A DNA stretch of 64,000 nt. Source: Aliiroseovarius crassostreae (GTDB taxonomy: Bacteria > Pseudomonadota > Alphaproteobacteria > Rhodobacterales > Rhodobacteraceae). The notes under the pieces are model-generated. The model searched no databases. It had not been told where the DNA came from and was given only the letters and a program-made list of their open reading frames with translations. This document shows positions 1-11,897 of the stretch, piece after piece; positions within the stretch are counted from its first letter, which is position 1; each line of letters starts with the position of its first letter. Position numbers and translations under genes: made by a program. The stretch is taken from contig NZ_LKBA01000006.1 of assembly GCF_001307765.1 (NCBI RefSeq), forward strand, positions 400,001 through 464,000. Direction: 5' to 3'.

Positions 1-4
1 GACA

Positions 5-15
5 GACTATGAGTC
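5..15. promoter_or_regulatory. C-box-like operator (left copy)
   Basis: The sequence GACT-ATG-AGTC matches the GACT-N3-AGTC box recognised by controller proteins of restriction-modification systems. The same box recurs 100 bp to the right, just before a C-protein-like gene. Its position at the window edge suggests it serves a gene, or a second promoter, lying outside to the left. Binding is inferred. Confidence 0.4.
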
Positions 16-104
16 AACCACGAGGGCGCATGTCCCCCTGCCTCTTCCTGCATTCTTGAATGTCGCCAGTGACTTCGGGCCTTCCGTCAGCCTAAGTCGA
101 ATAT

Positions 105-115
105 GACTTATAGTC
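105..115. promoter_or_regulatory. C-box-like operator / promoter of the XRE gene
   Basis: GACT-TAT-AGTC is a symmetric box 30-40 bp before the start of the small XRE gene. It overlaps a TATAGT hexamer at 109-114 that could be a -10 element. This layout is what is known for self-regulating C proteins of restriction-modification systems. No convincing -35 element is visible, which would fit activator dependence. Confidence 0.45.
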
Positions 116-144
116 TATGGTCGAAAGCGTGACCACCATGCGCG

Positions 145-363
145 ATGCCGCGCATGTCAATTCAATCGCGCGTTTCGAGAAATATCCAGAGGATCAGGAG
201 GGAGAAGGACCTTTCGCAAGAAGAGGTCGCCCATCGCGCGGACATTCACCAGACCTACCTGAGCGGCGTCGAAACCGGGAAGCGCAACCCGTCGATCTTG
301 GTGGTCGAGCGCATCGCCAAGGCCCTCGGCGTGGACGTGTCGAAAATCTTCAAGCCGAACTAG
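145..363 (+). CDS. small XRE-family regulator, C-protein-like
   Basis: This 72-residue protein consists almost only of an HTH_3 (lambda repressor-like) fold. The helix-turn-helix spans about residues 24-45 (LSQEEVAHRADIHQTYLSGV). The size, the sequence pattern and the motif ETGKRNPSILVVERIAKAL resemble controller (C) proteins that time restriction-modification gene expression. Start codons at 145 and 154 are both possible; neither has a strong ribosome site. GACT-N3-AGTC boxes upstream support an autoregulated C-like circuit. No restriction or methyltransferase gene is visible in this window, so the target genes may lie to the left or the regulator may be an orphan. Confidence 0.75.
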   Translation: MPRMSIQSRVSRNIQRIRREKDLSQEEVAHRADIHQTYLSGVETGKRNPSILVVERIAKALGVDVSKIFKPN

Positions 364-428
364 GGTTATCCCTGACACGCTCTGGCCTTGCGTCTTATCG
401 ATCTTCATCAGCATCTTAGGAGATCGAA

Positions 429-629
429 ATGACCGACATCGTGACACTCAAAGCCATCTGCGAAGAACTCAAAATTGACCCGCGCGAAGCCCGTGAGCGC
501 CTGCGTGCCGCCGCCAGCGACGCCAAGGCAAACCCCGAACTGGCGAAGGCTCGAAAACCGCGCACCGCTTGGCAGTGGGTGAAGGGGTCCGCCGCCGAGA
601 AGGAGGCTCGAAAAGCGCTCGCCATCTGA
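429..629 (+). CDS. small conserved-looking hypothetical protein
   Basis: A 66-residue, charged, probably all-helical protein beginning MTDIVTLKAICEELKIDPRE. An AGGAG-type ribosome site lies just upstream (tcttaggagatcgaaatg). The N-terminal half resembles a small HTH-like fold (ICEELKIDPREARERLRAA), and the C-terminal half is rich in Lys and Ala with a central WQWVKGS. It follows the XRE gene on the same strand after a gap of about 65 bp and may be co-transcribed. I recognise no assigned function; it could be a small nucleic-acid-binding accessory protein of the island. Confidence 0.6.
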   Translation: MTDIVTLKAICEELKIDPREARERLRAAASDAKANPELAKARKPRTAWQWVKGSAAEKEARKALAI

Positions 630-741
630 GACTTGTACTAATGAAATGCTGGGGTCGCTTGTTTGCGGCCCTTTGCATTGGCATGGGACCGAAGGCCATT
701 TCGACGTTTTCTATCGACCTGCTCTTTCGTCAGACCGGCTA

Positions 742-1638
742 TTAGGGGCGCGAAAAACGACTGAAGTAGTCGACTGCGTCCTCCTCTTGTTCCTCTTCAA
801 TATCCGCCAGTGGCGCGCGCGCACCCAACGTCAAGAGCGACAGGGAAAGATCGTACCGCTCTGAGATCATTGAGTGTTCTGTGACAGGCTCCCTCAGCCA
901 AGTCCCTCCATCGTGTCTAGTCGGTTCGATCAGCCCAACACTTCCGGCATTGCGCGCCACCGGCGACATCAAGGGGATTTCTCGCGGCGGCAATCCAGCA
1001 ACTTTGATAAACGCACCCGATTTGAACGCAGGTTCGCTGGACCTGGCCCAAAGAACGTAACCATCACGACTTACAACAAGGATGGCTCTTTTCTGGGTGT
1101 ATGAAAGCCACCGGAGCGTTGCTGCTGTCAACGAGACTTCGTAGCGCTCGGCACAAGCACCCAGCATGTCGAAATCAGCAGCGCGGTTCGCGGGAATCTG
1201 TGCTCGAAAATCATCCAGCGGCATTAGTAGACCGGCGGCGAAGCGGTTGGCCTCGGCTTCGACACGATTATATTCGCTATCCCATCTCACCATGTCCTCG
1301 GGACGGCATTGAAAGCCGTTTGGGTATTTCTTTCGGTGAAGCAAGTAGTGGCCGAACTCGTGCGCAATTGTGAAATTCACCCGCCCTTTTAAGCGGAGAG
1401 AATCGGAGTAGCCGATCCCCCACTCACCAGATCCATCCGGTTTTGGAATAAGTGCGCCCTCAAAACCGTCAAATCCCCGCGGGCGCACGCGTGTAATGGG
1501 ATCGTCTGGAAATACCTGTTGACTGTACTTTTGAGCCAAACTCGCCACGTCTACTGGAAAGCGAGCGGCCCCAAAGGCTGTAGTCAACAGGATTGAAAGG
1601 TCATTCGCCCACCGCTCCGGGCCTTTGTCTTGCTTCAT
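742..1638 (-). CDS. capP: ImmA/IrrE-type zinc metallopeptidase, CapP-like
   Basis: A 298-residue protein with the zinc-peptidase signature HEFGH (His93, Glu94, His97) followed by RVEAEANRFAAGLLMP, whose glutamates (Glu127/129) supply the third ligand in ImmA/IrrE proteases. The C-terminal half is a sensor-like domain of unclear fold. It overlaps the upstream HTH gene by ATGA, so the two are translationally coupled. Known CBASS regulators pair the repressor CapH with the peptidase CapP, which cleaves CapH when stimulated by DNA damage or single-stranded DNA. Gene order, domain types and the divergent CD-NTase operon fit that pair. The activating signal here is inferred. Confidence 0.85.
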   Translation of the reverse strand: MKQDKGPERWANDLSILLTTAFGAARFPVDVASLAQKYSQQVFPDDPITRVRPRGFDGFEGALIPKPDGSGEWGIGYSDSLRLKGRVNFTIAHEFGHYLLHRKKYPNGFQCRPEDMVRWDSEYNRVEAEANRFAAGLLMPLDDFRAQIPANRAADFDMLGACAERYEVSLTAATLRWLSYTQKRAILVVSRDGYVLWARSSEPAFKSGAFIKVAGLPPREIPLMSPVARNAGSVGLIEPTRHDGGTWLREPVTEHSMISERYDLSLSLLTLGARAPLADIEEEQEEDAVDYFSRFSRP

Positions 1639-1958
1639 TCGTCATCCCAGAGGTCAAGCATCTTGCGCATCGTATCACGTTTGTCCGGGTCCAATCCGAC
1701 GAATTTCCGAAAGAAAACCTTGTCCTCAGGAGATAAGTCGTCTGCGGTATTAATTGGCGTGCCGATAAGAACATCGACCGTCGTGTCCAAGGCAGCCGCA
1801 ATCGCAGCCAATTTGTCCGCAGACGGCCTCGGGGGATTCTTGTTTTCGAGTTCCCAAATGTAACCTTTGCTGCATCCCGCCTTGGCCGCGAGTTGGTCGA
1901 GAGTGAGGCCGCTTCCTTTTCGGCGATCCCGAATCCGCTGGCCCATTGGTGTGGTCAT
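1635..1958 (-). CDS. capH: XRE-family repressor, CapH-like
   Basis: A 107-residue protein with an N-terminal HTH (about residues 18-60, including LDQLAAKAGCSKGYIWELE) and a short acidic C-terminal tail (DLSPEDKVFFRKFVGLDP...). GGAGGG five bases before the ATG at 1958 supports this start. It is the first gene of a two-gene operon with the metallopeptidase and is divergent from the CBASS operon. The likely role is repression of both operons from the shared intergenic region, relieved by cleavage by its partner. The tail after the HTH is where CapH-type proteins carry the cleavage site and dimerisation part; I cannot locate a scissile bond from sequence. Confidence 0.85.
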   Translation of the reverse strand: MTTPMGQRIRDRRKGSGLTLDQLAAKAGCSKGYIWELENKNPPRPSADKLAAIAAALDTTVDVLIGTPINTADDLSPEDKVFFRKFVGLDPDKRDTMRKMLDLWDDE

Positions 1959-1978
1959 GTCCGCCCTCCGTGTGCTTT

Positions 1979-2056
1979 GTTCAGAGTAGACATATTTTTC
2001 CTCCTTGACAAACGTGACGGCAGGTCACACCTTTGTGTTCAGAGTAGCGGTATTTT
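1979..2056. promoter_or_regulatory. divergent operator region of capHP and CBASS operons
   Basis: The element GTTCAGAGTAG-N3-TATTTT occurs twice as a direct repeat, at 1979-1998 and 2037-2056. Between the copies lies an inverted repeat GTGAC-GGCAG-GTCAC (2014-2028), and CGTGACACG sits at 2058-2066. This dense set of sites between a repressor gene and its presumed target operon is a good candidate for CapH operators or paired promoters. Binding is inferred. Confidence 0.6.
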
Positions 2057-2153
2057 GCGTGACACGTTTCTTGGCTATCATCAACATATCGGGCAGTGAC
2101 GATAGGCCAACCCTACACATAGGGGCGGCCAAGCGACCTAGAAAGGGTCCACG

Positions 2154-3401
2154 ATGAACAAGCACTTGGGGACCCCGGCCGCACCGTGGGACAGTGTTTC
2201 GGAACAGATGTTGGCGGCCGTGGCCATCAAGATCGAACTACCACCGAGCATGCACGCACTTCTGGCAGAGCGGAAAGCGGCTATCGAGAAGCACCTTGAA
2301 CGCGATGGAAGCCCTTTGAAAGGGAAGATCCGTCTCTTCTACCAGCAAGGCTCGGCAGCCATCGGCGCAACCATTCGAGCCAAATTTCGCTTCGAAGGTT
2401 TCGACATTGACATCATTGTCGAACTGAATACACCGGGCTTGACGCCTTGGGAGGCCCTTGAGTTGCTCTACGAGGCCATGCGGGGGGAGCGTGGCTCGCG
2501 TTACTACGACATGACTGAGCGCCAGACTCGGTGTGTGACGATCCACTATGCTGACGGGATGCACCTTGACCTGTCTCCTGCTGAATTGATCAGCGAAATC
2601 GACCCGCGCCGTAGCTACATCTTCCATTCCAAACCTGAAGATCAGCGCAACAAAGACCACAGGGTGTTGACCAACAGTTTCGGGTTTGTCGAGGAGTACA
2701 ATTCGACCTGCCCGGTCGATCTGTCGTTTCAGCAGGAGTACGCTCGGCGGGCACTCCAAGCCGATCAAGGCCTGGTCGTCATGCAGAAGGATGCAGACTC
2801 TTTGCCTGTACCAGCCCACTCGACTGTCGTGGGAGGGAAATCAGCGGTCACCGTGGCACTTCAACTTCTCAAAAGGAACCGCAACATCCGATGGGCAACC
2901 CGGGACGGGCGCATGCCCGCCTCTGTGATGCTGAGTTGTCTGACGTTGGAGGTCGCAGAATCAGGGCGGACCATTGGTCAGAACCTCAAGATCATCGCGC
3001 AGCACATCCTCGACCGCCTGCTGTGGGCGAAAAGCGTAGGTGAACTGATCCATGTGGAGAACCCGCGATGCCCCGGCGATGTGTTCACTGATCGCTGGCC
3101 CGAAAACCACTCCGCACAAGACAAGATGATCGCGGACATGAAGCTGTTCTTGGAACAACTCAGCGTGCTTCTCGATGATCGACGGACTTTGCGTGAACGT
3201 CGCGACACCTTGAAAGCCATGTTCGGCGAAGACATTGGCCAGCAAGTCGTGGACGACATGGAACGCGAGATTGGTGAGGCTATTCGCACTGGTCGTCATG
3301 GCTTCGGCGCGCTCGGCGGCCTTGCTATGAGCCCAACCATCGCACGGGCCAAACCAGCGGTGAAGCCTTCGACATTCTATGGCACGCGGTTTTGGAAATG
3401 A
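2154..3401 (+). CDS. CD-NTase (cGAS/DncV-like nucleotidyltransferase) of a CBASS system
   Basis: A 415-residue nucleotidyltransferase. The active-site motif is GS at residues 66-67, then FDIDI with Asp84 and Asp86, and a third acidic residue in LDLSP (Asp139). This is the GS...D-x-D...D arrangement of CD-NTases, which make cyclic di- or trinucleotide second messengers on phage infection. GAAAGGG lies a few bases before the ATG. Its stop overlaps the E2 gene by ATGA, and a patatin effector follows, defining a CBASS operon. The C-terminus ends in ...TRFWK rather than glycine, which matters if the neighbouring E2 acts on this end. The nucleotide product and clade cannot be told from sequence alone. 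Confidence 0.9.
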   Translation: MNKHLGTPAAPWDSVSEQMLAAVAIKIELPPSMHALLAERKAAIEKHLERDGSPLKGKIRLFYQQGSAAIGATIRAKFRFEGFDIDIIVELNTPGLTPWEALELLYEAMRGERGSRYYDMTERQTRCVTIHYADGMHLDLSPAELISEIDPRRSYIFHSKPEDQRNKDHRVLTNSFGFVEEYNSTCPVDLSFQQEYARRALQADQGLVVMQKDADSLPVPAHSTVVGGKSAVTVALQLLKRNRNIRWATRDGRMPASVMLSCLTLEVAESGRTIGQNLKIIAQHILDRLLWAKSVGELIHVENPRCPGDVFTDRWPENHSAQDKMIADMKLFLEQLSVLLDDRRTLRERRDTLKAMFGEDIGQQVVDDMEREIGEAIRTGRHGFGALGGLAMSPTIARAKPAVKPSTFYGTRFWK

Positions 3402-3877
3402 TGAAATCCCTTCTGGCACAAGTGGACGCAATGCAGCGCGATTGGCCGCAGTTCCAACCCACGAAGGGGTTCGGGCCGCAGTCCGTTGTCTGGTTTGGCG
3501 ATATTAAGGGCATAGATCGAAAATTTCAGATCAGCATCGAGTACGGCCTGCCGCTGACCGGGCGAACTGAACTATACCGGCGCATGCCCGTGGTTCGCGT
3601 CCTGAGGCCCTCGCTAGTCCCAAATTGGGACGCCGAAGAGGAGTCGCCACTCCCTCACGTTTACTTCGAGCTTCCAGACATCAGGTTGTCTCCGCTTTGT
3701 TTGTTCGACCCTAAGGCTCGTGAATGGGACCCATCCATGCTCATCAGCCGAACGACCGTTGGCTGGACTGTGCGCTGGCTCGCCGCTTACGAGTTCTGGG
3801 AAATGACCGGGCGTTGGATCGGCGGCGGGCGACACGAGGAAATTGGGACAGAAAAGGGCGACAGCCATGCCGCGTGA
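3398..3877 (+). CDS. stand-alone E2-like protein of type II-short CBASS
   Basis: A 159-residue protein with the hallmarks of the CBASS E2 (ubiquitin-conjugating-like) domain. It has PHVYF (His87), then LSPLCLFDPKAREW with candidate catalytic Cys101, then TVGWTVRWLAAYEFWEMTGRWIGGG. No E1 (ThiF-like) or JAB peptidase gene is adjacent, so this is the E2-only type II variant rather than the full Cap2/Cap3 form. E2 proteins in CBASS attach to the C-terminus of the CD-NTase and prime its activity. The start at 3398 gives a 4-bp ATGA overlap; an upstream TTG (3392) is less likely. The assignment rests on motif recognition. Confidence 0.8.
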   Translation: MMKSLLAQVDAMQRDWPQFQPTKGFGPQSVVWFGDIKGIDRKFQISIEYGLPLTGRTELYRRMPVVRVLRPSLVPNWDAEEESPLPHVYFELPDIRLSPLCLFDPKAREWDPSMLISRTTVGWTVRWLAAYEFWEMTGRWIGGGRHEEIGTEKGDSHAA

Positions 3878-4940
3878 CAGCGAATATGACCACACCGTTC
3901 CTCGACGCTCTGACGGAACGAGACAAACTCTCAGACCGGTTCAGCCGTGGCCTGCGGAGAAGCCGTTCAAGATACTTTCCATCGATGGCGGCGGCATCTT
4001 GGGCATTCTTCCATGCATGGTGTTGGCTGAAGTCGAGAAACGGTTCCTTGGAGGTGAGCCAATCGGGCAGCACTTCGACATGATCGTGGGCACATCGACC
4101 GGGGGCATTATCGCGTTGGGCCTTGGACAAGGGAAATCTGCACAAGAAATCTCCAAACTCTACATTGAGCGTGGCCGGTTCATTTTTCCTGGAAATCGCC
4201 TTACGCGGTGGTTTCGCGGTTTGGCGGGCTGGGCATTCACCCCATACAACCGGGCCAACCTCGAAAACGAGCTGCGTCGAGAGTTTGCTGATGGTCTCTT
4301 CGGCTCTTCATCTGTCGCAACCTGCATACCGTCCTTCGATGGCAGATATGGTGAGCCATATGTTTTCAAGACGCCTCACCACCCCGACTACAAGAAAGAC
4401 CAGTATGAACGACTTGTGGATGTCGGGCTTTCCACTGCGGCGGCGCCAACGTTCTTTGCTGCGGTGAAAAGAAACGGATATGTGTTCGCAGATGGTGGCA
4501 TTTGGGCGAACAATCCCGCCATGATCGGTGTTGTGGACGCACTGACCTGCTATGACATTGATCGCACCCAGATCCGGCTACTGAGCCTCGGATGCGGTCA
4601 AGAAAGCTATCGGATGCGCTGGTGGCACCGCATCGGGGGGAAATTCATCTGGGCCAGCGCGTTTGTTGCCTCTGCTATGAGGGCACAATCGCACAACGCG
4701 TTGGGTCAAGCCGGATTGTTGATTGGTCGCCCCCATTTGCTGCGGCTAGATGCCCCTGAGGTCGCCAATAGGATTGGAATGGACAATGTCGACAGGGCTT
4801 TGGCGGAAATGCCCCCCGTCGCAAGATCGCTTGTGGAAGCATCGGGCCAAAGGATTTCCCAGATATTTCTCCAAGATGAGCACCCGGAACCATCGCGGGC
4901 TCAACACACCGAGCCAAGCGACAGTGCGATTTCAGTCTAA
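3867..4940 (+). CDS. capV: patatin-like phospholipase, CBASS effector CapV
   Basis: A 357-residue patatin domain. It shows the oxyanion loop DGGGILG (residues 40-46), the nucleophile elbow GTSTG with Ser77, and the catalytic DGG with Asp209. CapV-type effectors are switched on by the cyclic nucleotide made by the CD-NTase and degrade membrane phospholipids, killing the infected cell. I chose the ATG at 3867, which overlaps the E2 gene by 11 bp; a TTG at 3843 would add eight residues. It is the last gene of the operon. The glycine-rich loop reads GGGILG instead of the common GGGxRG, a conservative variation. Confidence 0.9.
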   Translation: MPRDSEYDHTVPRRSDGTRQTLRPVQPWPAEKPFKILSIDGGGILGILPCMVLAEVEKRFLGGEPIGQHFDMIVGTSTGGIIALGLGQGKSAQEISKLYIERGRFIFPGNRLTRWFRGLAGWAFTPYNRANLENELRREFADGLFGSSSVATCIPSFDGRYGEPYVFKTPHHPDYKKDQYERLVDVGLSTAAAPTFFAAVKRNGYVFADGGIWANNPAMIGVVDALTCYDIDRTQIRLLSLGCGQESYRMRWWHRIGGKFIWASAFVASAMRAQSHNALGQAGLLIGRPHLLRLDAPEVANRIGMDNVDRALAEMPPVARSLVEASGQRISQIFLQDEHPEPSRAQHTEPSDSAISV

Positions 4941-5122
4941 GCAGGGCATTATGAAATTCGGCAGGGGCCTTCCCGCCAGATACGAAGGCTTCTTAGCGTC
5001 GCAAGCGTTGCGCAGACATCCTGTCTCTGCTCGATATGCTACCCAAATGATACCCACGGGAAGCAAGGGCTAGTTTCGCGCAAAGACGACAGCGTCTAGT
5101 CTCTTGTTTTTATTTATTAAAA

Positions 5123-5197
5123 TGGTGCCCGGGGGCGGAATCGAACCACCGACACGAGGATTTTCAATCCACTGCTCTACCCCTGAGCTACCCGGGC
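5123..5197 (-). tRNA. tRNA-Phe (GAA)
   Basis: A 75-nt cloverleaf on the minus strand with encoded CCA. The acceptor arms are GCCCGGG/CCCGGGC, the D arm GCTC/GAGC, the anticodon loop TTGAAAA (GAA), and the T arm GGTGG-TTCGATT-CCGCC. The anticodon stem (GTGGA/TCCTC) has one U-U mismatch at pair 28-42. The gene lies about 180 bp beyond the last defence gene, so it could be the attachment site of the island, but no integrase or repeated tRNA end is visible in the window. Confidence 0.95.
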
Positions 5198-5310
5198 ACG
5201 GGAGAAGCGATTTACGTCTGACACGTTACTGTGCGCTGGACGTTGCATCGTTCGGGTAGCGGGGTTCTAGTCTTGGGCGACGGGGGTGTCCAGAGGAAAA
5301 ATCGACTTTT

Positions 5311-5505
5311 TCACTGCGGGCGCAAAGTTTTTTCCGAAAGCGCCTTTGCGATCTCCTCCATCGCTTCATCCGCATCCTCCGGTGCGTCAGCCGGAACGGC
5401 GTAGGAGCCGTTCAGCCAACGTCCCAGGTCCACATCTGCACAACGCCGCGAACAGAACGGGCGGTATTTCGGATCGGTATCCTTGGCGCAGATCGGGCAG
5501 CTCAT
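5311..5505 (-). CDS. yacG: YacG family zinc-finger protein (DNA gyrase inhibitor)
   Basis: A 64-residue protein with the YacG zinc site: CPIC at residues 3-6 and CSRRC at 18-22, that is C-x2-C...C-x3-C, followed by [16 protein letters not shown]. The E. coli protein binds GyrB and inhibits gyrase. The length is typical. Its start overlaps the end of the RNase E/G-like gene by 4 bp, and yacG closes the infA-maf-RNase-yacG minus-strand operon, a common order in Rhodobacterales. Confidence 0.9.
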
Positions 5506-6536
5506 GACAGGCTTTCCTTAAGCGCGATACGCTCTCTTTTACGCTGCAATTCGAAATTGCCCAGCACGGTCCACCCCGCCAGAGAGGTCTCAACCCCATC
5601 CGCCCTGAAGGCGTTGCGCAAAGCCGTTTCGATCTGGCGGCGTTCTTTCTTGGGGCTGGGGGCAAAATCGACAACAATCTGCCCGCCGAGCCCCCGCACC
5701 CGCAACGCACGCGGCAAAACCTTTGCCAGGGCGATATTGGCCTTAAGACCCGCCGCAGGGCTGGCATCCGGGCCGGTATTCACATCCACCGCAACCAATG
5801 CCCGCGTGGCTTCAACAAAGGCATACGCCCCGCCCGGAAGACGCACCAGCGCCCCGAGGGCCTCATCAATCAGATCCTCGACACCATGACGTTCAAACGC
5901 CCCCTCGGCATCATCAAGCTGGTCGGGCAGGTCCCATTCACGCCAGGCAAGCGCATGGGCATCGGCCCCTTCCACCAAAAGCTCCGGACTGCTCCCCTCA
6001 GCATCGGCCAAGACCGCGCGGGACAGATCCAGCATCGCCACGATATCATCCGCCACATCCGCATCGGATCCGCTGACCGAGACCGACCGCAGAATCAGCC
6101 CCTCCTCGGCCTCCCCCATCACGTCATGGGCAATTTCCAACAGGCGCTCGCGTTCCTCTTCATCCCGAATGGCGCGGCTGACATTCAGACCGGGCGCGCC
6201 GGGGGTGACAATGGCGTAGCGGCTTTTAAAGAGCACTTTTTGCGTGACCGGCACCGCCTTGCCAGCCTCGGCAAATCCGATCACCTGCACCAGGATCGCC
6301 TGACCGGGCGAAAGCCCTTTGCCCTGACGCAGAAACGCCGTTTCCCCATCCGGCAGACGCAGCATCATGCCCCCCTGCCCCTTCAACGGACGATCACAGA
6401 TCGCCCGGTAAATGGCACCGGGCAGAGCGTATTGCTCAGGCGGTTCGATCAGAAGGTCATCCAGTTGCCCATCGACAATGCGCGCAGCCGCGAGGCGGCC
6501 CCGATAGGTATCAAGCGCGACAATGCTGCCCTTCAT
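5502..6536 (-). CDS. ribonuclease E/G family protein, short form
   Basis: A 344-residue protein with the catalytic core pattern of RNase E/G: an S1-like N-terminal part, then [17 protein letters not shown], carrying the metal-binding aspartate of the DNase I-like subdomain, and [10 protein letters not shown] with the second aspartate. It is clearly shorter than full RNase E (about 900 residues) or RNase G (about 490), lacking the large C-terminal scaffold and probably the Zn-link region. It may take part in RNA processing. The operon order with maf and yacG is conserved in this group, suggesting it is a real family member and not a truncation. Confidence 0.85.
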
Positions 6537-6548
6537 GATCTTCGCTCC

Positions 6549-7130
6549 TTATATATCGTAAAGCGGAAAGCCGGCGGCGATCAGCAGGTTGGCGGTCTCA
6601 TGCACCGGCAATCCCACCACCGAGGTATAGCTCCCCTCGATCCAGCTGACAAAAGCGCCCGCCGGACCCTGAATGGCATATCCACCCGCCTTGCCCTGCC
6701 AGTCACCCGAGGCCAGATAGGCTGCAAGTTCCTGATCTGACAGGCGTTTCATCTTGACCGCGGTCACGACATCCCGCGCCCAGCGGCCTGTCGCAGTCCG
6801 GACCACAACCGAGGTGATCACCTTATGACGCCGCCCCTCTAGCGCGCGCAGGAACGCGGCGGCCTCGGCCTCATTACGGGGTTTTCCCATGATCCGACGC
6901 CCAAGCGCGACGGTGGTATCGGCGCACAGCACCACCTCATCGGTGGCCACGTCCATCGCATCGGCCTTGGCACCGGCAATGCGGCGGCAATAATTCAACG
7001 GAAGCTCGCCCTTCAGCGGGGTTTCATCCACATCCGGTGGGCGCACCGCATCAGCACGAAAGCCGAGCTGACCCAACAGCTCGGCCCTTCGGGGGCTTCC
7101 AGACCCGAGAATCAACTTGGGACGCGTCAT
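6549..7130 (-). CDS. maf: Maf family nucleotide pyrophosphatase
   Basis: A 193-residue protein with the Maf signature [11 protein letters not shown] at the N-terminus (residues 9-19), DETP (35-38), [16 protein letters not shown] and [11 protein letters not shown]. Maf proteins hydrolyse noncanonical or canonical NTPs to monophosphates and have been linked to septum control. The full-length protein lies between infA and the RNase gene with short gaps (about 12-16 bp), consistent with one transcript. Confidence 0.92.
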
Positions 7131-7146
7131 GCGCCTGTGATCCCGA

Positions 7147-7365
7147 TTACTTGAAGCGATAATTGATCCGACCTTTGGTCAGATCATAGGGGGTCATTTC
7201 GACCTGCACCTTGTCGCCAGCCAGAACGCGGATGCGGTTTTTCCGCATCTTGCCTGCCGTATGCGCGATGATCGTATGGCCGTTTTCCAGCTCGACCAGA
7301 AATGTCGCGTTCGGCAGGAGTTCCTTCACGACACCGGGGAATTCGAGCAGTTCTTCCTTGGCCAT
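7147..7365 (-). CDS. infA: translation initiation factor IF-1
   Basis: A 72-residue S1/OB-fold protein beginning [19 protein letters not shown] and ending RINYRFK, as in nearly all bacterial IF-1. I chose the ATG at 7365, preceded by CAGGAGTGAAC; a GTG two codons upstream is in frame but places the ribosome site too close. It heads the infA-maf-RNase-yacG operon. Confidence 0.97.
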
Positions 7366-7451
7366 GTTCACTCCTGTAAAAACACCCGTCCATCACGGGC
7401 GCCCTCTAAATGGTCCCAAACGGGAGGGTTTTCAAGGGAAATTCGGCCGTT

Positions 7452-8348
7452 TCAGCACAAAGTGACATTTGTGACGGGGAAAACGCGGTTTTCCTGTTCA
7501 TCCCAATGGGTTTTGGTCAGCACATTGCCGTCACGCCGCACCTCTCGGATCGCCTGTAAATCGACCTCGGCCCAGGTCCATCCCGGCGTGTCGAAACTGC
7601 CCTGTGCAAGGATGCCATTGGCGGGGAACCCCTTGTCGGGTGGGCCATATATGGCCGCAGCCCCCGTGTTGACATCCACCACTTCGTTCCAATCCGCCCG
7701 TCCCTGCGTCGGGGCGTGAACGGTGATGCATTGCCCTTCCAATGCCCGCGCCATGGCCCCCACCCGCACGCGGGTATAGCCCTCCAGCCCTTCCGTGGCA
7801 GAGGGCACCAGAATGATCTCGGCCCCCACGTCGATCAGCGCCCGCCCCAACAGGGGAAACTCGCTGTCATAACAGATCAAGACACCAATCTTGCCCAGCG
7901 CAGTGTCCATCACGACAAGCGGCCGCCCGCCCTGCACCTGCATCGGGTCCCGCTCCCACCGGGTCATGATCTGCTTGTCATGAATGACCTGCGCCCCGTC
8001 CGGGGTGAAAAATGTGGCACGGTTTACCGGGTGTGGAAAATCCGGGTCAAAACACGGGCCGGAGGGACCAAGGATGTGGACACCCCGCGCCGCCGCAAGC
8101 CCCGCGAGAACCGCGTTCATCTCATCCATCCGATCCGCAACCGCCCGCATCGAGCCCTGCACGTCAGCGGCAATATCGCGCCCGGCCAGCGACGCGAGCT
8201 CCATTGCACCATATTCGGGAAAAACCAAAAGCTCTGCCTTCTGCTCCACCGCCGCCCCGACCCAGCGCGTGAGCTTGCCTTCAACGCTGGCCCAGTCGTC
8301 ATGCCAGTCAATCGGATAGGCCGCCGCCGCAATACGCAGTTTGCTCAT
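7452..8348 (-). CDS. carbon-nitrogen hydrolase (nitrilase superfamily)
   Basis: A 298-residue enzyme with the nitrilase catalytic triad: Glu45 in VFPEYG, Lys125 in HDKQIM and Cys159 in GVLICYDSEFP. Such enzymes hydrolyse amides or nitriles, for example omega-amides or N-carbamoyl compounds; the substrate cannot be named. It lies upstream of infA on the same strand and downstream of GNAT and NTF2-like genes, separated from the GNAT gene by a pair of family-B repeats. The three may form one metabolic group. Confidence 0.88.
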   Translation of the reverse strand: MSKLRIAAAAYPIDWHDDWASVEGKLTRWVGAAVEQKAELLVFPEYGAMELASLAGRDIAADVQGSMRAVADRMDEMNAVLAGLAAARGVHILGPSGPCFDPDFPHPVNRATFFTPDGAQVIHDKQIMTRWERDPMQVQGGRPLVVMDTALGKIGVLICYDSEFPLLGRALIDVGAEIILVPSATEGLEGYTRVRVGAMARALEGQCITVHAPTQGRADWNEVVDVNTGAAAIYGPPDKGFPANGILAQGSFDTPGWTWAEVDLQAIREVRRDGNVLTKTHWDEQENRVFPVTNVTLC

Positions 8349-8368
8349 GATCTTCCTCTTATCGTTCA

Positions 8369-8501
8369 GGGGTGCTGCCCCTCGCCTCTTCGAGGCTCAC
8401 CCCGGGATATTTTAAACCAGAAAATAGAGGCACCCGTCCCGGTCATTTTCTGGTCAGAAATATCCTGGGGTGAGGACAAAGTCCGAGGGGCAAAGCCCCT
8501 G
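8369..8501. repeat. family-B repeat, inverted pair
   Basis: Two copies of the family-B repeat lie head to head: 8369-8428 read on the minus strand and 8443-8501 on the plus strand. Each contains TATTTTCTGGT followed by GAAATATCCTGGGGTGA-like sequence and a GGGGC-N3-GCCCC hairpin. Copies also occur near 11981 and 57341. The hairpins could end transcription of the flanking minus-strand genes. Confidence 0.7.
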
Positions 8502-8507
8502 CTTCCC

Positions 8508-9104
8508 TCACAGGGCGCGGATCCAGAATTGAAGTTGTTTTACATCTTCGTTCACTTTTCCAACATCTTTCCAGGGAAAAGACGCCAGAACCCCGTCAAT
8601 CTTTTCATATCCCCGCTTTCGCCAAAACTCATCCAACGGGCGATAGTTGGCGGGCCTGGCCGGGTGGTCCAATGGGCGGATCACGCTGCAAAACGCGGCG
8701 TATCGGCGCCCGAGGGTGCGGGCATGTGCTTCGCGGATGTCAAAAAAGCGATGCCCGATACCGCGCCCACGAAAGCTCGGCAACAGCACGCTTTCCGCAT
8801 GATAAAAGATGTCGCCAAGCTCATATCCGCTCTTTGCAAAAGCCGCGGCGAAATCATCGGCATGATCTTCCATCGGCGTGCCGGTTGCCGCCCCGACCAG
8901 CCTATCATCCTCAAAGGCCCCAACCAGCACCGCCCCTGCGGATTTGCGATAGCTCTGCAGGTAGCGGTGTTCATATTCGAATGTCCCATCATAAAGATAA
9001 GGCCAGTCGCGAAACACCTGCATGCGCAGCCGGGCCACATCTGCCAGATGATCCTCCAGATCCGCACCTGTCAGGGGGCGAACATCAATTCCCGCGGACG
9101 TCAT
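8508..9104 (-). CDS. GNAT family N-acetyltransferase
   Basis: A 198-residue protein with a GNAT fold. Motif A is visible as ESVLLPSFRGRGIGHRFFDIREAHA (R-G-R-G-I-G, the acetyl-CoA pyrophosphate loop, about residues 113-118). It overlaps the NTF2-like gene by 4 bp (ATGA type), so the two are translationally coupled. The substrate is unknown. It sits with a nitrilase-type amidohydrolase, which hints at metabolism of an amine or amide. Confidence 0.85.
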   Translation of the reverse strand: MTSAGIDVRPLTGADLEDHLADVARLRMQVFRDWPYLYDGTFEYEHRYLQSYRKSAGAVLVGAFEDDRLVGAATGTPMEDHADDFAAAFAKSGYELGDIFYHAESVLLPSFRGRGIGHRFFDIREAHARTLGRRYAAFCSVIRPLDHPARPANYRPLDEFWRKRGYEKIDGVLASFPWKDVGKVNEDVKQLQFWIRAL

Positions 9105-9496
9105 GAGACCTGCCGGATCCAGTCGTTGAGGTTGTAATAGGTGGTCACCCGCGTGATCAGCCCGTCCTTGAGCGAGAAGAATGCCCCGGCGGGCAGCACA
9201 TAGGTCTGGCCATGCGCCTCTGGCAGTCCCGGATCGGTTTTCAGATAGGTGCCATTCACGGTAAATTCGGCCGCGCCACGGGTGCCATCCGCGCTGACCA
9301 TCACCACCATATCGGTGAGCTGCTCGCTATAGGTTTCATTCATATGGGCGCAAAATTCACCAAACGCGTCTTTGCCCACGCGCCGCGCCCCTTCATTCAC
9401 GTCATGCACGAACTCATCCGACAGGCAGGCCACCATGCCCGCGATGTCCCCCGCATTGAATGCGGCATAGTAGCGTTGAATAGTGTCGCGGCTCAT
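9101..9496 (-). CDS. NTF2-like / SnoaL-like (ketosteroid isomerase-related) protein
   Basis: A 131-residue single-domain protein with the NTF2-like opening pattern IQRYYAAFNAGDIAGMVACLSDEFVHDVNEG and a C-terminal beta region ending YYNLNDWIRQVS. These alpha+beta barrels act as isomerases, hydrolases or binding proteins, and the function here is unknown. It is coupled to the GNAT gene downstream by overlapping start and stop codons. Confidence 0.8.
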   Translation of the reverse strand: MSRDTIQRYYAAFNAGDIAGMVACLSDEFVHDVNEGARRVGKDAFGEFCAHMNETYSEQLTDMVVMVSADGTRGAAEFTVNGTYLKTDPGLPEAHGQTYVLPAGAFFSLKDGLITRVTTYYNLNDWIRQVS

Positions 9497-9634
9497 CCGG
9501 TTTCCTCAGCTGATCTCATGGACTTTTTGCCAAACTGCCGCCATGGCACCAGCAGCACAAGCCGGAATGCGACGCTTCACGCCGTATTCCCACCGCAAGT
9601 GTCCCGTTCCCGCCCGGCAAAAGCGCCCGGATGA

Positions 9635-10099
9635 TTAAAGTGGTGGCACCCCTTCGGGCAGACCGAAATGCGCCTGCAGTTTTGCGCGGATCTGGTCGCG
9701 GGCCTGACGGTAGGCGTCAAGCTTTTCCTCGCGCCGCGTTCCAATCGCGGTGGGATCAATAATGGGCCAGTAGATCACCTCAAGATGACAGCGCCGGGCC
9801 AGTTCCTCAGCGCGGGCCTGACTGGCGGGCGACAGCGCAATCACCAGATCGAAACTGGACAGGTCATCCCCCCATTCCTCCATCTGGTCAAAACTGCGCA
9901 CCTTATGCGCCGACAGTTCGACCCCAAGTTCGGAACAGACCGCCACGGCAAAGCCGTCGATTTCCAGCTCGGAATGCACCCCCGCTGACTGGACATAGAT
10001 GTCCTGCCCGTAAAGTGCCTTCATCAGCCCTTCGGCCATCGGTGAGCGCACCGAATTATGATCACAACAAAAAAGAACCGACTGCGGCCGATCAACCAT
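9635..10099 (-). CDS. low-molecular-weight protein tyrosine phosphatase / arsenate reductase-like
   Basis: A 154-residue LMW-PTP fold with the phosphate-binding loop C-x5-R at Cys12-Arg18 (CDHNSVRS) near the N-terminus. Such proteins are either tyrosine phosphatases or thioredoxin-type ArsC arsenate reductases; no arsenic genes are nearby. It directly follows the UPF0262 gene (3-bp gap) in the hisD-UPF0262-phosphatase operon, an order common in Rhodobacterales, so a housekeeping phosphatase is more likely. Confidence 0.85.
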   Translation of the reverse strand: MVDRPQSVLFCCDHNSVRSPMAEGLMKALYGQDIYVQSAGVHSELEIDGFAVAVCSELGVELSAHKVRSFDQMEEWGDDLSSFDLVIALSPASQARAEELARRCHLEVIYWPIIDPTAIGTRREEKLDAYRQARDQIRAKLQAHFGLPEGVPPL

Positions 10100-10102
10100 G
10101 TA

Positions 10103-10585
10103 TTATCCCCAGTGCAATACACAGATCAGAGTGAACAGGCGGCGCGCGGTGTCAAGATCAATTTCCGCTTTGCCCTCAAGCCGCTCCTGCAACACCCGCG
10201 CCCCTTCGTTATGAATCCCGCGCCGCGCCATGTCGATGGCTTCGATCTGGCTGGGCGGCAGGGCCTTGACCGCATCGAAATAGCTTTCACAGATCGCGAA
10301 GTAATCCTTCACCACCTGACGAAATGGCCCAAGCGACAGAAGAACCAGACCCGCAGGCGTGCCCTCTTCGGTCTGGGCCTCCATCACCAGACGTTTTTCC
10401 TGAATGGCCAGACGCAGATGATAGGGGCCTTCCGGCACGACCTGGTCGCCCCGTGCCTCTAGGGCAAAACTGTTGTCTTCCAGCAGATCAAACACCGCCA
10501 CCTTCCGCTCCTGCTCAATCGCAGGGGTGGGGGCGGCCAGTCCGGTCTCGTCAATGTCGATATGGGTGATACGGTTTGTGCTCAT
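10103..10585 (-). CDS. UPF0262 family protein
   Basis: A 160-residue protein matching the UPF0262 pattern: N-terminal RITHIDIDE, then QERKVAVFDLLEDN, GPYHLRLAIQEKRLVMEA, and the C-terminal MARRGIHNEGARVLQERLEGKAEIDLDTARRLFTLICVL. The function is unknown. It is almost always next to hisD in alphaproteobacteria, as here (10 bp after hisD). Confidence 0.9.
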   Translation of the reverse strand: MSTNRITHIDIDETGLAAPTPAIEQERKVAVFDLLEDNSFALEARGDQVVPEGPYHLRLAIQEKRLVMEAQTEEGTPAGLVLLSLGPFRQVVKDYFAICESYFDAVKALPPSQIEAIDMARRGIHNEGARVLQERLEGKAEIDLDTARRLFTLICVLHWG

Positions 10586-10595
10586 GGTCTCAGGT

Positions 10596-11897
10596 CTACT
10601 CGTTCAGGGCGTCAAGCCGCGCACGCACGGACAGGCCATGCGCCTCAAGGCTTTCGGAAATGGCAAGGGTTTCAGCCGCCGGCCCGATCGCGGCCAGTGC
10701 GGCCGGGGTCATCCGCGCCAGGGTGGTGCGCTTAATGAAATCCATCACCGACAGACCCGACGAAAACCGTGCCGAGCGCGCCGTCGGCAGCACATGGTTT
10801 GGCCCCCCAACGTAGTCGCCAATGGCTTCCGGCGTGAATTGACCAAGGAAAATCGCACCGGCATGGGTGCATTTCTGCCCCAGCGCATCCGGGTCCGCGA
10901 CGCAAAGCTCCAGATGTTCCGGCGCAATGCGGTTCGACAACGCCGCCGCCTCATCCAGATCGCGCACGGTGATCACCGCGCCAAAATCACGCCAGCTTGC
11001 CCCGGCAATCGCACGCCGTTCCAGCGTCTGCAGACGGGCATCAACGGCATCAGCCACCGCGCGCCCGAACCCCTCATCGGTGGTGATCAGGAGCGATTGC
11101 GCGCTCTCATCATGTTCGGCCTGGCTCATCAGATCCAGCGCCAGCCAGTCCGGGTTGTTATCCGCATCCGCAATCACAAGGATTTCCGACGGGCCAGCAA
11201 TCATGTCGATGCCCACCTTGCCAAACACCCGGCGCTTGGCAGCTGCCACAAATGCGTTGCCCGGCCCGGTGATCTTGTCGACCGGTTGAATGCTCTCTGT
11301 TCCATAAGCCAGCGCCGCAATCGCCTGCGCCCCGCCAACCCGGTAAATCTCATCCACACCTGCAATTTTTGCAGCAAGCAGCACAAGCGGATTGACCTGT
11401 CCATCCGGCGTGGGCACGGTGATCGCCAGACGCTCAACCCCCGCCACCTTGGCCGGAATCGCGTTCATCAAAACCGAGGACGGATAGGTCGCCAGCCCGC
11501 CGGGCACATAAAGTCCTGCCGCCGAGACCGGCGTCCAGCGCCAGCCCAGATCAGCACCGCTGTCATCGGTCCACATGGCATCCGCAGGCAGTTGTTTCTC
11601 GTGATAGGCCCGGATCCGCGCCGCCGCCAGTTCCAGCGCCTCCCGGTCGGCCCCTGCCACCTTCGCGCATTCCGCCGCAATCTCGCTTTCGCTAAAACGC
11701 AGACGATCTGCCGTCAGCTCCAGACGGTCAAACTTCGCGGTCAGGGCCAGAACCGCCGCATCCCCACGCGCACGCACATCCGCAATGATCCCGGCCACGA
11801 TATCATCCACTTCGGGGCTGTCCTCGCGCTTCATCGACAAAAGCCCGGCAAAGCGCGCTTCGAAATCGGCGTCCTGACTGTTCAGAAACTGGGGCAT
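10596..11897 (-). CDS. hisD: histidinol dehydrogenase
   Basis: A 433-residue enzyme catalysing the last two steps of histidine synthesis (histidinol to histidine, NAD- and Zn-dependent). Signature stretches include GPGNAFVAAAKRRVFGKVGIDMIAGPSE, and SQAEHDESAQSLLIT with zinc and catalytic residues. AAGGAG seven bases before the ATG at 11897 fixes the start. It heads a three-gene operon with UPF0262 and the LMW phosphatase. Confidence 0.97.
   Translation of the reverse strand: MPQFLNSQDADFEARFAGLLSMKREDSPEVDDIVAGIIADVRARGDAAVLALTAKFDRLELTADRLRFSESEIAAECAKVAGADREALELAAARIRAYHEKQLPADAMWTDDSGADLGWRWTPVSAAGLYVPGGLATYPSSVLMNAIPAKVAGVERLAITVPTPDGQVNPLVLLAAKIAGVDEIYRVGGAQAIAALAYGTESIQPVDKITGPGNAFVAAAKRRVFGKVGIDMIAGPSEILVIADADNNPDWLALDLMSQAEHDESAQSLLITTDEGFGRAVADAVDARLQTLERRAIAGASWRDFGAVITVRDLDEAAALSNRIAPEHLELCVADPDALGQKCTHAGAIFLGQFTPEAIGDYVGGPNHVLPTARSARFSSGLSVMDFIKRTTLARMTPAALAAIGPAAETLAISESLEAHGLSVRARLDALNE

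Follow-up and report, generated by a model that had tools for sequence, protein, structure and literature searches.

A type II-short CBASS locus with CapH and CapP in Aliiroseovarius crassostreae, and the C-terminal tail of E2-only cyclases

Introduction

The nearest studied relative of the locus described here is the CdnG-E2 system of Serratia marcescens, a type II-short cyclic-oligonucleotide-based antiphage signaling system (CBASS). The 2024 study of Yan is said to have found that this E2-only system processes the C-terminus of its cyclase and links the cyclase first to the cysteine of the E2 and afterwards to lysines; the resulting poly-cGASylation reportedly activates the cyclase, and the processing is ascribed to the E2 itself. 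In this work we have analyzed a 64,000-nucleotide stretch of DNA from Aliiroseovarius crassostreae (the window), where the locus at 742–4940 is, as judged from its sequence, an intact type II-short (E2-only) CBASS beside CapH and CapP. It is a new member of a kind that is already known.

In full type II CBASS, with Cap2 (E1-E2) and Cap3, the cyclase is also modified via its C-terminus with the involvement of an E2-type cysteine, in the accounts drawn on here (PMC10097602, PMC11153139). These cyclases end in Gly or Ala, a statement based on 1,583 proteins in PMC10097602 and also found in PMC11153139. Three architectures are represented in the sequence logo of Fig. 1d of PMC10097602, and according to its legend E2-only is not among them. 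PMC11153139 also contains a proposal of cyclase–cyclase conjugation for a type II short system, and an entry in a review table, citing Yan 2024, gives Y405 as the cGASylation residue of the Serratia cyclase (PMC12135389). In the CapH/CapP systems that have been studied, CapP is activated by single-stranded DNA and cuts CapH (PMC13373217).

An intact type II-short locus

The locus comprises five intact reading frames in 4.2 kb with all motif residues in place, which rules out a decayed locus. The minus strand carries capP-capH and the plus strand cyclase-E2-capV, two tightly packed units that diverge, and adjacent genes overlap inside each of them. The genes, motifs, positions and ATGA coupling given in the original prediction, which was made from the DNA letters, were all confirmed by the open reading frames (ORFs) and a check of the motifs, with family matches far beyond chance. 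All five proteins are named by PADLOC and each has solved relatives; E-values are given in brackets in what follows.

The cyclase (2154–3401, plus strand, 415 aa) is a CdnG-like cGAS/DncV-like nucleotidyltransferase (CD-NTase) with a GS...DxD...D active site, formed by GS at 66–67, DID at 84–86 and D139. It matches the PADLOC Cyclase model (7.9e-156), and the closest solved cyclase is CdnG of Bradyrhizobium diazoefficiens (Protein Data Bank (PDB) 7ljn, 3.6e-60). It is followed by a lone E2 (3398–3877, plus strand, 159 aa) with Cys101, recognized by PADLOC (3e-49) and by comparison with chain 8hsb_B (4.4e-8); no Pfam or NCBIfam model matched this protein. Cys101 is aligned in 55 of 55 E2 rows. 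The third gene of the operon, capV (3867–4940, plus strand, 357 aa), encodes a patatin-like phospholipase with Ser77 and Asp209. It is a phospholipase effector by PADLOC (3.4e-114), scores 228.5 bits with NCBIfam CBASS_lipase (cut-off 200) and matches solved patatin/CapV chains (best 1.3e-32); by this family assignment the operon includes a cell-killing effector.

On the minus strand capH (1635–1958, 107 aa) encodes a helix-turn-helix (HTH) repressor (PADLOC capH, 7.1e-29; solved CapH 7t5u, 1.1e-15), and has an ATGA overlap with capP (742–1638, 298 aa). The latter encodes an IrrE/ImmA-like M78 metallopeptidase with HEFGH at residues 93–97 (PADLOC capP, 2.5e-67; Pfam Peptidase_M78, 56.4 bits; solved CapP 7t5t, 1.4e-57). 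An HTH protein and an HExxH M78 peptidase thus lie divergent from the immune operon. The likeness to the CapH/CapP switch for which structures are available (PDB 7t5t and 7t5u) extends to both proteins, the ATGA coupling and the divergence from the CBASS operon.

The unit differs from full type II CBASS in having neither an E1 domain nor a JAB peptidase, and the last residue of its cyclase is Lys in place of Gly or Ala. The cyclase, E2, capV and the tRNA gene beyond have no further gene-sized ORF between them, so the unit lacks an E1-E2 fusion and any gene for an E1 or a JAB protein. Ubiquitination-like operons of the Bub/Bil type combine an E1 and an E2 with further ubiquitin-like components and lack a CD-NTase; since a CD-NTase and CapV are present here and an E1 is absent from the unit, the locus does not belong with them. 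PADLOC, Pfam, NCBIfam, solved relatives and Foldseek agree on the class originally proposed, type II-short CBASS with CapV and a CapH/CapP pair. A search of the genome for a second copy of the cyclase returned no more than the one match at E 0.001.

The predicted folds support these assignments. The model of the 159-aa protein (predicted local distance difference test score, pLDDT, 87) has an E2 fold, with a Foldseek match to chain B of Serratia CdnG-E2 (8yjy_B, 1.2e-6, template-modeling score 0.68); the next matches are eukaryotic UFC1 structures, and are weak (E 0.09 and up). The 415-aa protein (pLDDT 83) keeps the nucleotidyltransferase fold and matches Bradyrhizobium CdnG (Foldseek, 2.5e-28). 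Neither of the two results named in advance as overturning the original prediction, a missing E2 fold or a lost nucleotidyltransferase fold, was obtained. The pLDDT falls below 50 over the last 31 residues of the cyclase, 385–415, and we read this tail as disordered in the model.

The Serratia system (PDB 8hsb, 8yjy and 9kkb) resembles the one in the window in its separate E2 of matching fold and in a cyclase tail of TFYG plus extension, NTFYGE in Serratia and STFYGTRFWK in the window. It is nevertheless distant by sequence (cyclase 7.6e-7, E2 4.4e-8). One of the surveyed loci (L004) has a cyclase that looks the same as Bradyrhizobium diazoefficiens CdnG in an alignment judged by eye. It is E2-only like the window, but its tail is HTNMG-ERR and an ORF that looks by eye like HNH takes the place of CapV.

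A conserved glycine near the end of E2-only cyclases

The window cyclase ends FYGTRFWK (F408–K415, codons 3375–3398, plus strand), i.e. aromatic-x-Gly with a short extension. The original prediction regarded the FWK end as a departure from the glycine expected for E2 chemistry, suggested that the tail might need trimming, and proposed a survey of terminal residues among E2-only CBASS. We carried out this survey on loci gathered with the cyclase as the starting point. They comprised the 80 best genome loci among 128 relatives, four loci from viral contigs and five from other genomes of the same class. With the window copy, 90 loci had a cyclase ORF; removal of seven duplicates left 83 distinct loci, and six of these (L015, L019, L029, L041, L083 and L090) were left out as broken, cut off or having no E2 found, giving 77 intact E2-only loci.

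At the end of the cyclase 74 of the 77 loci have xx[F/Y/N]xG followed by 1–9 residues, the extension being 3–6 residues long in 68/74. The residue preceding the Gly is F in 32, Y in 20, M in 17, R in 4 and C in 1. Gly or Ala is the last residue in 4/77 E2-only cyclases, whereas 16 of 17 control cyclases with a PADLOC-confirmed E1-E2 neighbor stop exactly there. The controls derive from a phylum control set of 30 loci. With the motif used no cyclase was found in four; the 26 left included the 17 confirmed E1-E2 loci, four of other kinds (L102, L108, L115 and L120), one with a long neighbor beside the cyclase (L117) and one whose neighbor matched nothing (L107). The remaining three have a lone E2, by PADLOC (L113 and L122) or by single-sequence search only (L119), and all three have the tail motif. 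Among plasmids, 71 records had an E2 match; eight were opened for variety and one was dropped as having no cyclase before the E2 (L127). The motif is present in 6/7, from Sutcliffiella, Priestia, Leuconostoc, Lactiplantibacillus, Pseudoalteromonas and Agrobacterium. The motif and a lone E2 co-occur in Alphaproteobacteria, Gammaproteobacteria, Bacillota and other phyla.

Gly410 is aligned in 59/59 cyclases that are 17–98% identical to that of the window, an alignment in which the aberrant FHCG and FHP tails were fitted with gaps. It is one of 13 invariant columns, alongside the GS/DxD/D active site. The survey rules out FWK as a one-off, and the view of it as departing from the E2-only norm was not sustained, terminal Gly/Ala being the rule for E1-E2 loci. 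The suggestion that the tail may need trimming is consistent with the internal Gly and extension. As a rule of thumb suggested by these tails, E2-only cyclases have a conserved internal Gly plus a short variable tail, and E1-E2 cyclases a terminal Gly or Ala, so that the puzzle of the FWK end becomes a means of telling the two apart. Alignment of sequences at their extreme C-termini can easily hide an internal Gly whose distance from that end varies. We recognized no tail survey of E2-only cyclases in the literature searched, the likeliest sources lying outside that search.

A tree was calculated for 44 cyclases, of which 28 were selected E2-only rows and the other 16 were the E1-E2 rows apart from L111. 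Three E1-E2 rows ending GFA or GFG (L104, L109 and L110) adjoin two E2-only rows with TFYGM and NFFGEN (L126 and L128), with moderate support (82/90), and hence the type of tail seems to follow the machinery.

Probable cleavage and conjugation, and the alternatives

We note that the observed features are the genes, the families and folds to which their products belong, the conservation of the tail and the candidate operator described below. We think it likely that they are explained as a whole by a type II-short CBASS with CapH/CapP induction, E2-driven tail processing and conjugation, and CapV as effector. The scheme takes CapP/CapH induction, tail cleavage, conjugation, CapV activation and defense by analogy from the relatives. 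In the resting state CapH would be bound to the repeat between the transcription units and hold expression of both capHP and the cyclase-E2-capV operon at a low level. Once single-stranded DNA arose from phage replication or from DNA damage of another kind, CapP would cut CapH and the operon would be induced. The CdnG-like cyclase would then meet the E2, with Cys101 attacking the flexible tail at F408-Y409-G410, so that the short tail after the conserved Gly is probably cut off. The attack would expel the extension, and the cyclase would be held as a thioester with no E1 involved. Its subsequent transfer to lysines, probably on other cyclase molecules, would raise cyclase activity, and the cyclic oligonucleotide made would activate CapV, leading to destruction of the membrane.

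The proposed processing site is either Y409/G410 or G410/T411, and the predicted loss from the window cyclase is GTRFWK or TRFWK respectively. In the solved Serratia chain, which ends NTFYGE, the listed residue Y405 is followed by G406 and E407, and therefore the cut may precede the conserved Gly.

Several observations weigh against this explanation or the tail rule. The sole extended cyclase among the 17 E1-E2 controls (L100) ends RYA-GSALP, near 2490–2511. Three of the 77 E2-only cyclases are without the strict motif (FHPMILGG, FHCG and FHPFVLDG), as is one of the seven from plasmids (Cereibacter, FHCG). The idea came from the first tails, and the counting pattern was written after the survey tails had been viewed and is thus partly fitted. 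On the tree the E2-only label undergoes just three changes over the 44 rows, so tail type and machinery are clustered and few independent switches back their link. The account of the mechanism in Serratia is drawn in part from secondary sources. Lastly, the side of Gly410 on which the chain may be cut is ambiguous, the Y405 entry placing it before the Gly and the analogy with ubiquitin after it.

Four E2-only loci (L006, L088, L089 and L130) have tails of FHCG or FHP...G in place of F-x-G, and the E2s paired with them may cut at another site. The cyclases of L006, L088 and the Cereibacter plasmid are a supported group on the tree.

Three other explanations should be considered. Trimming of the tail might be performed by a host protease and the carboxylate then activated by an E1-like protein of the ThiF/MoeB type encoded elsewhere, leaving the E2 as a carrier as in full type II CBASS. 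An exposed carboxylate would need activation in ubiquitin chemistry, and ThiF/MoeB proteins are general in bacteria. Yet the motif and lone E2 span several phyla, and a suitable protease would presumably be needed in each host; moreover, the Serratia study is reported to credit the E2 with processing. We consider this improbable. Rather less probable still is that the E2 acts as a scaffold or allosteric activator with the conserved tail as its docking peptide and no covalent chemistry. The solved CdnG-E2 complex (8hsb and 8yjy) would fit such a role, and flexible tails bearing an aromatic motif commonly serve for docking, but the complete conservation of Cys101 argues otherwise, and docking alone leaves the extension after the Gly unexplained. 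That the extension has no role, being read-through into the overlapping E2 start with FWK as drift, is very unlikely: the E2 start codon (3398) does lie inside the cyclase stop region and the extension sequences vary, but in 74/77 E2-only loci the Gly has one or more residues after it, against 16/17 E1-E2 cyclases ending in Gly/Ala, and an E1-E2 cyclase that overlaps its next ORF (L093) still stops at Gly, which makes a mere by-product of gene overlap unlikely.

E2-driven processing could be general. Across bacteria E2-only CBASS would then perform a conjugation free of E1 and ATP, in which a peptide bond of the cyclase tail, at an aromatic/hydrophobic-x-Gly site with a throw-away extension, supplies the E2 cysteine with its energy. 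Internal Gly plus extension or terminal Gly/Ala would separate the two chemistries by sequence alone. We consider this wider proposal about as likely as not. With the tail rule, an E1-free conjugation chemistry can be put to the test in many hosts, and this compact locus, with five genes in 4.2 kb, its own switch and a candidate operator, is a handy test case.

The CapH/CapP switch and a candidate operator

The original prediction singled out the combination of E2-only CBASS with CapH/CapP. The combination is common and in this the locus is ordinary for its class: divergent CapH and CapP occur in 32/77 E2-only loci including the window (E 1e-3), or 27/77 at strict cut-offs. CapV is present in 62/77, and CapH, CapP and CapV together in 30/77. 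The regulator counts are likely to be lower bounds, because PADLOC recognizes CapP in two loci (L036 and L004) where the single-sequence search matched weakly. The place of CapH/CapP is taken in L074 by a fused HTH-M78 protein (PADLOC RmrA), and in L008 by a short M78 protein (capP model, 1.6e-9) and an HTH protein without a PADLOC match. One of the loci left out of the count (L029, 5938–8451, Latescibacteria) has a cyclase fused in frame, at KHT of the tail motif, to a protein that looks by eye like HTH plus M78; no E2 match lies behind this cyclase.

Between capH and the cyclase there is a direct repeat of 21 bases, with copies at 1978–1998 (TGTTCAGAGTAGACATATTTT) and 2036–2056 (TGTTCAGAGTAGCGGTATTTT) that are 58 bases apart and 86% alike. 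In the 3.72 Mb of genome searched, the pattern GTTCAGAGTAGNNNTATTT is matched twice, both times at the locus, and not at all when read backwards. This repeat is a candidate CapH operator. The hexamer TTGACA at 2005–2010 lies 25 bases before the second copy, and was read as a promoter by eye. Cleavage of CapH activated by single-stranded DNA would be expected here if the switch acts as in the studied systems.

The core GTTYAGAGTRG occurs twice in L009–L011, L014 and L087, all with this type of CapH. A single copy is found in L007, whose contig begins 232 bases ahead of the cyclase and shows differences in that stretch. The core is absent upstream of the cyclase in L008, which has the other HTH and M78 pair, and in L012, L013 and L016, for which no CapH/CapP match was found. 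In its place L008, L012 and L013 have an inverted repeat, with exact arms of 11 in L008, 8 in L012 and 19 in L013; there is none in L016. These four loci share the CBASS core, and the regulator may be exchanged together with its operator, like a cassette.

Genomic setting

A tRNA-Phe gene (gaa; 5123–5197, minus strand) lies 182 bases behind capV and is a possible insertion locus of the unit. In L007 and L021, two of the 15 related loci scanned, such a gene likewise follows capV at a distance of no more than 190 bases. An att repeat of the tRNA 3′ end was sought and rejected, the 21-mer having one match in the genome with two mismatches allowed. The contig also encodes two tyrosine recombinases; the one at a distance of about 180 kb scores above the cut-off, and the nearer one, at about 32 kb, scores below it.

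A predicted viral contig (L087, IMGVR_UViG_3300027985_001644, 140–11421) carries a unit with a cyclase that is 98% identical, and also matches stretches at both ends of the unit (window 4–760 at 89% and 4902–5016 at 81%). Beside this unit are genes for a Prim-Pol/AAA protein, a GIY-YIG protein, a D12 methyltransferase and an S24 repressor. Given this company, the unit is probably carried by a mobile element; L087 is possibly a satellite or prophage ferrying CBASS. The ends of a mobile element were not found, the 5 kb preceding the window being given as N.

Window 1–616, which borders the unit on its left, is 92% identical to a plasmid record of Ruegeria pomeroyi DSS-3; this region has a small HTH gene (145–363) and a 66-aa ORF (429–629). 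Three near-identical copies of the locus (L009, L010 and L011) are present in one metagenome-assembled genome, with L009 and L011 100% identical over 9.3 kb and L009 and L010 99.4% identical over 7.8 kb, reflecting either recent amplification or an effect of assembly.

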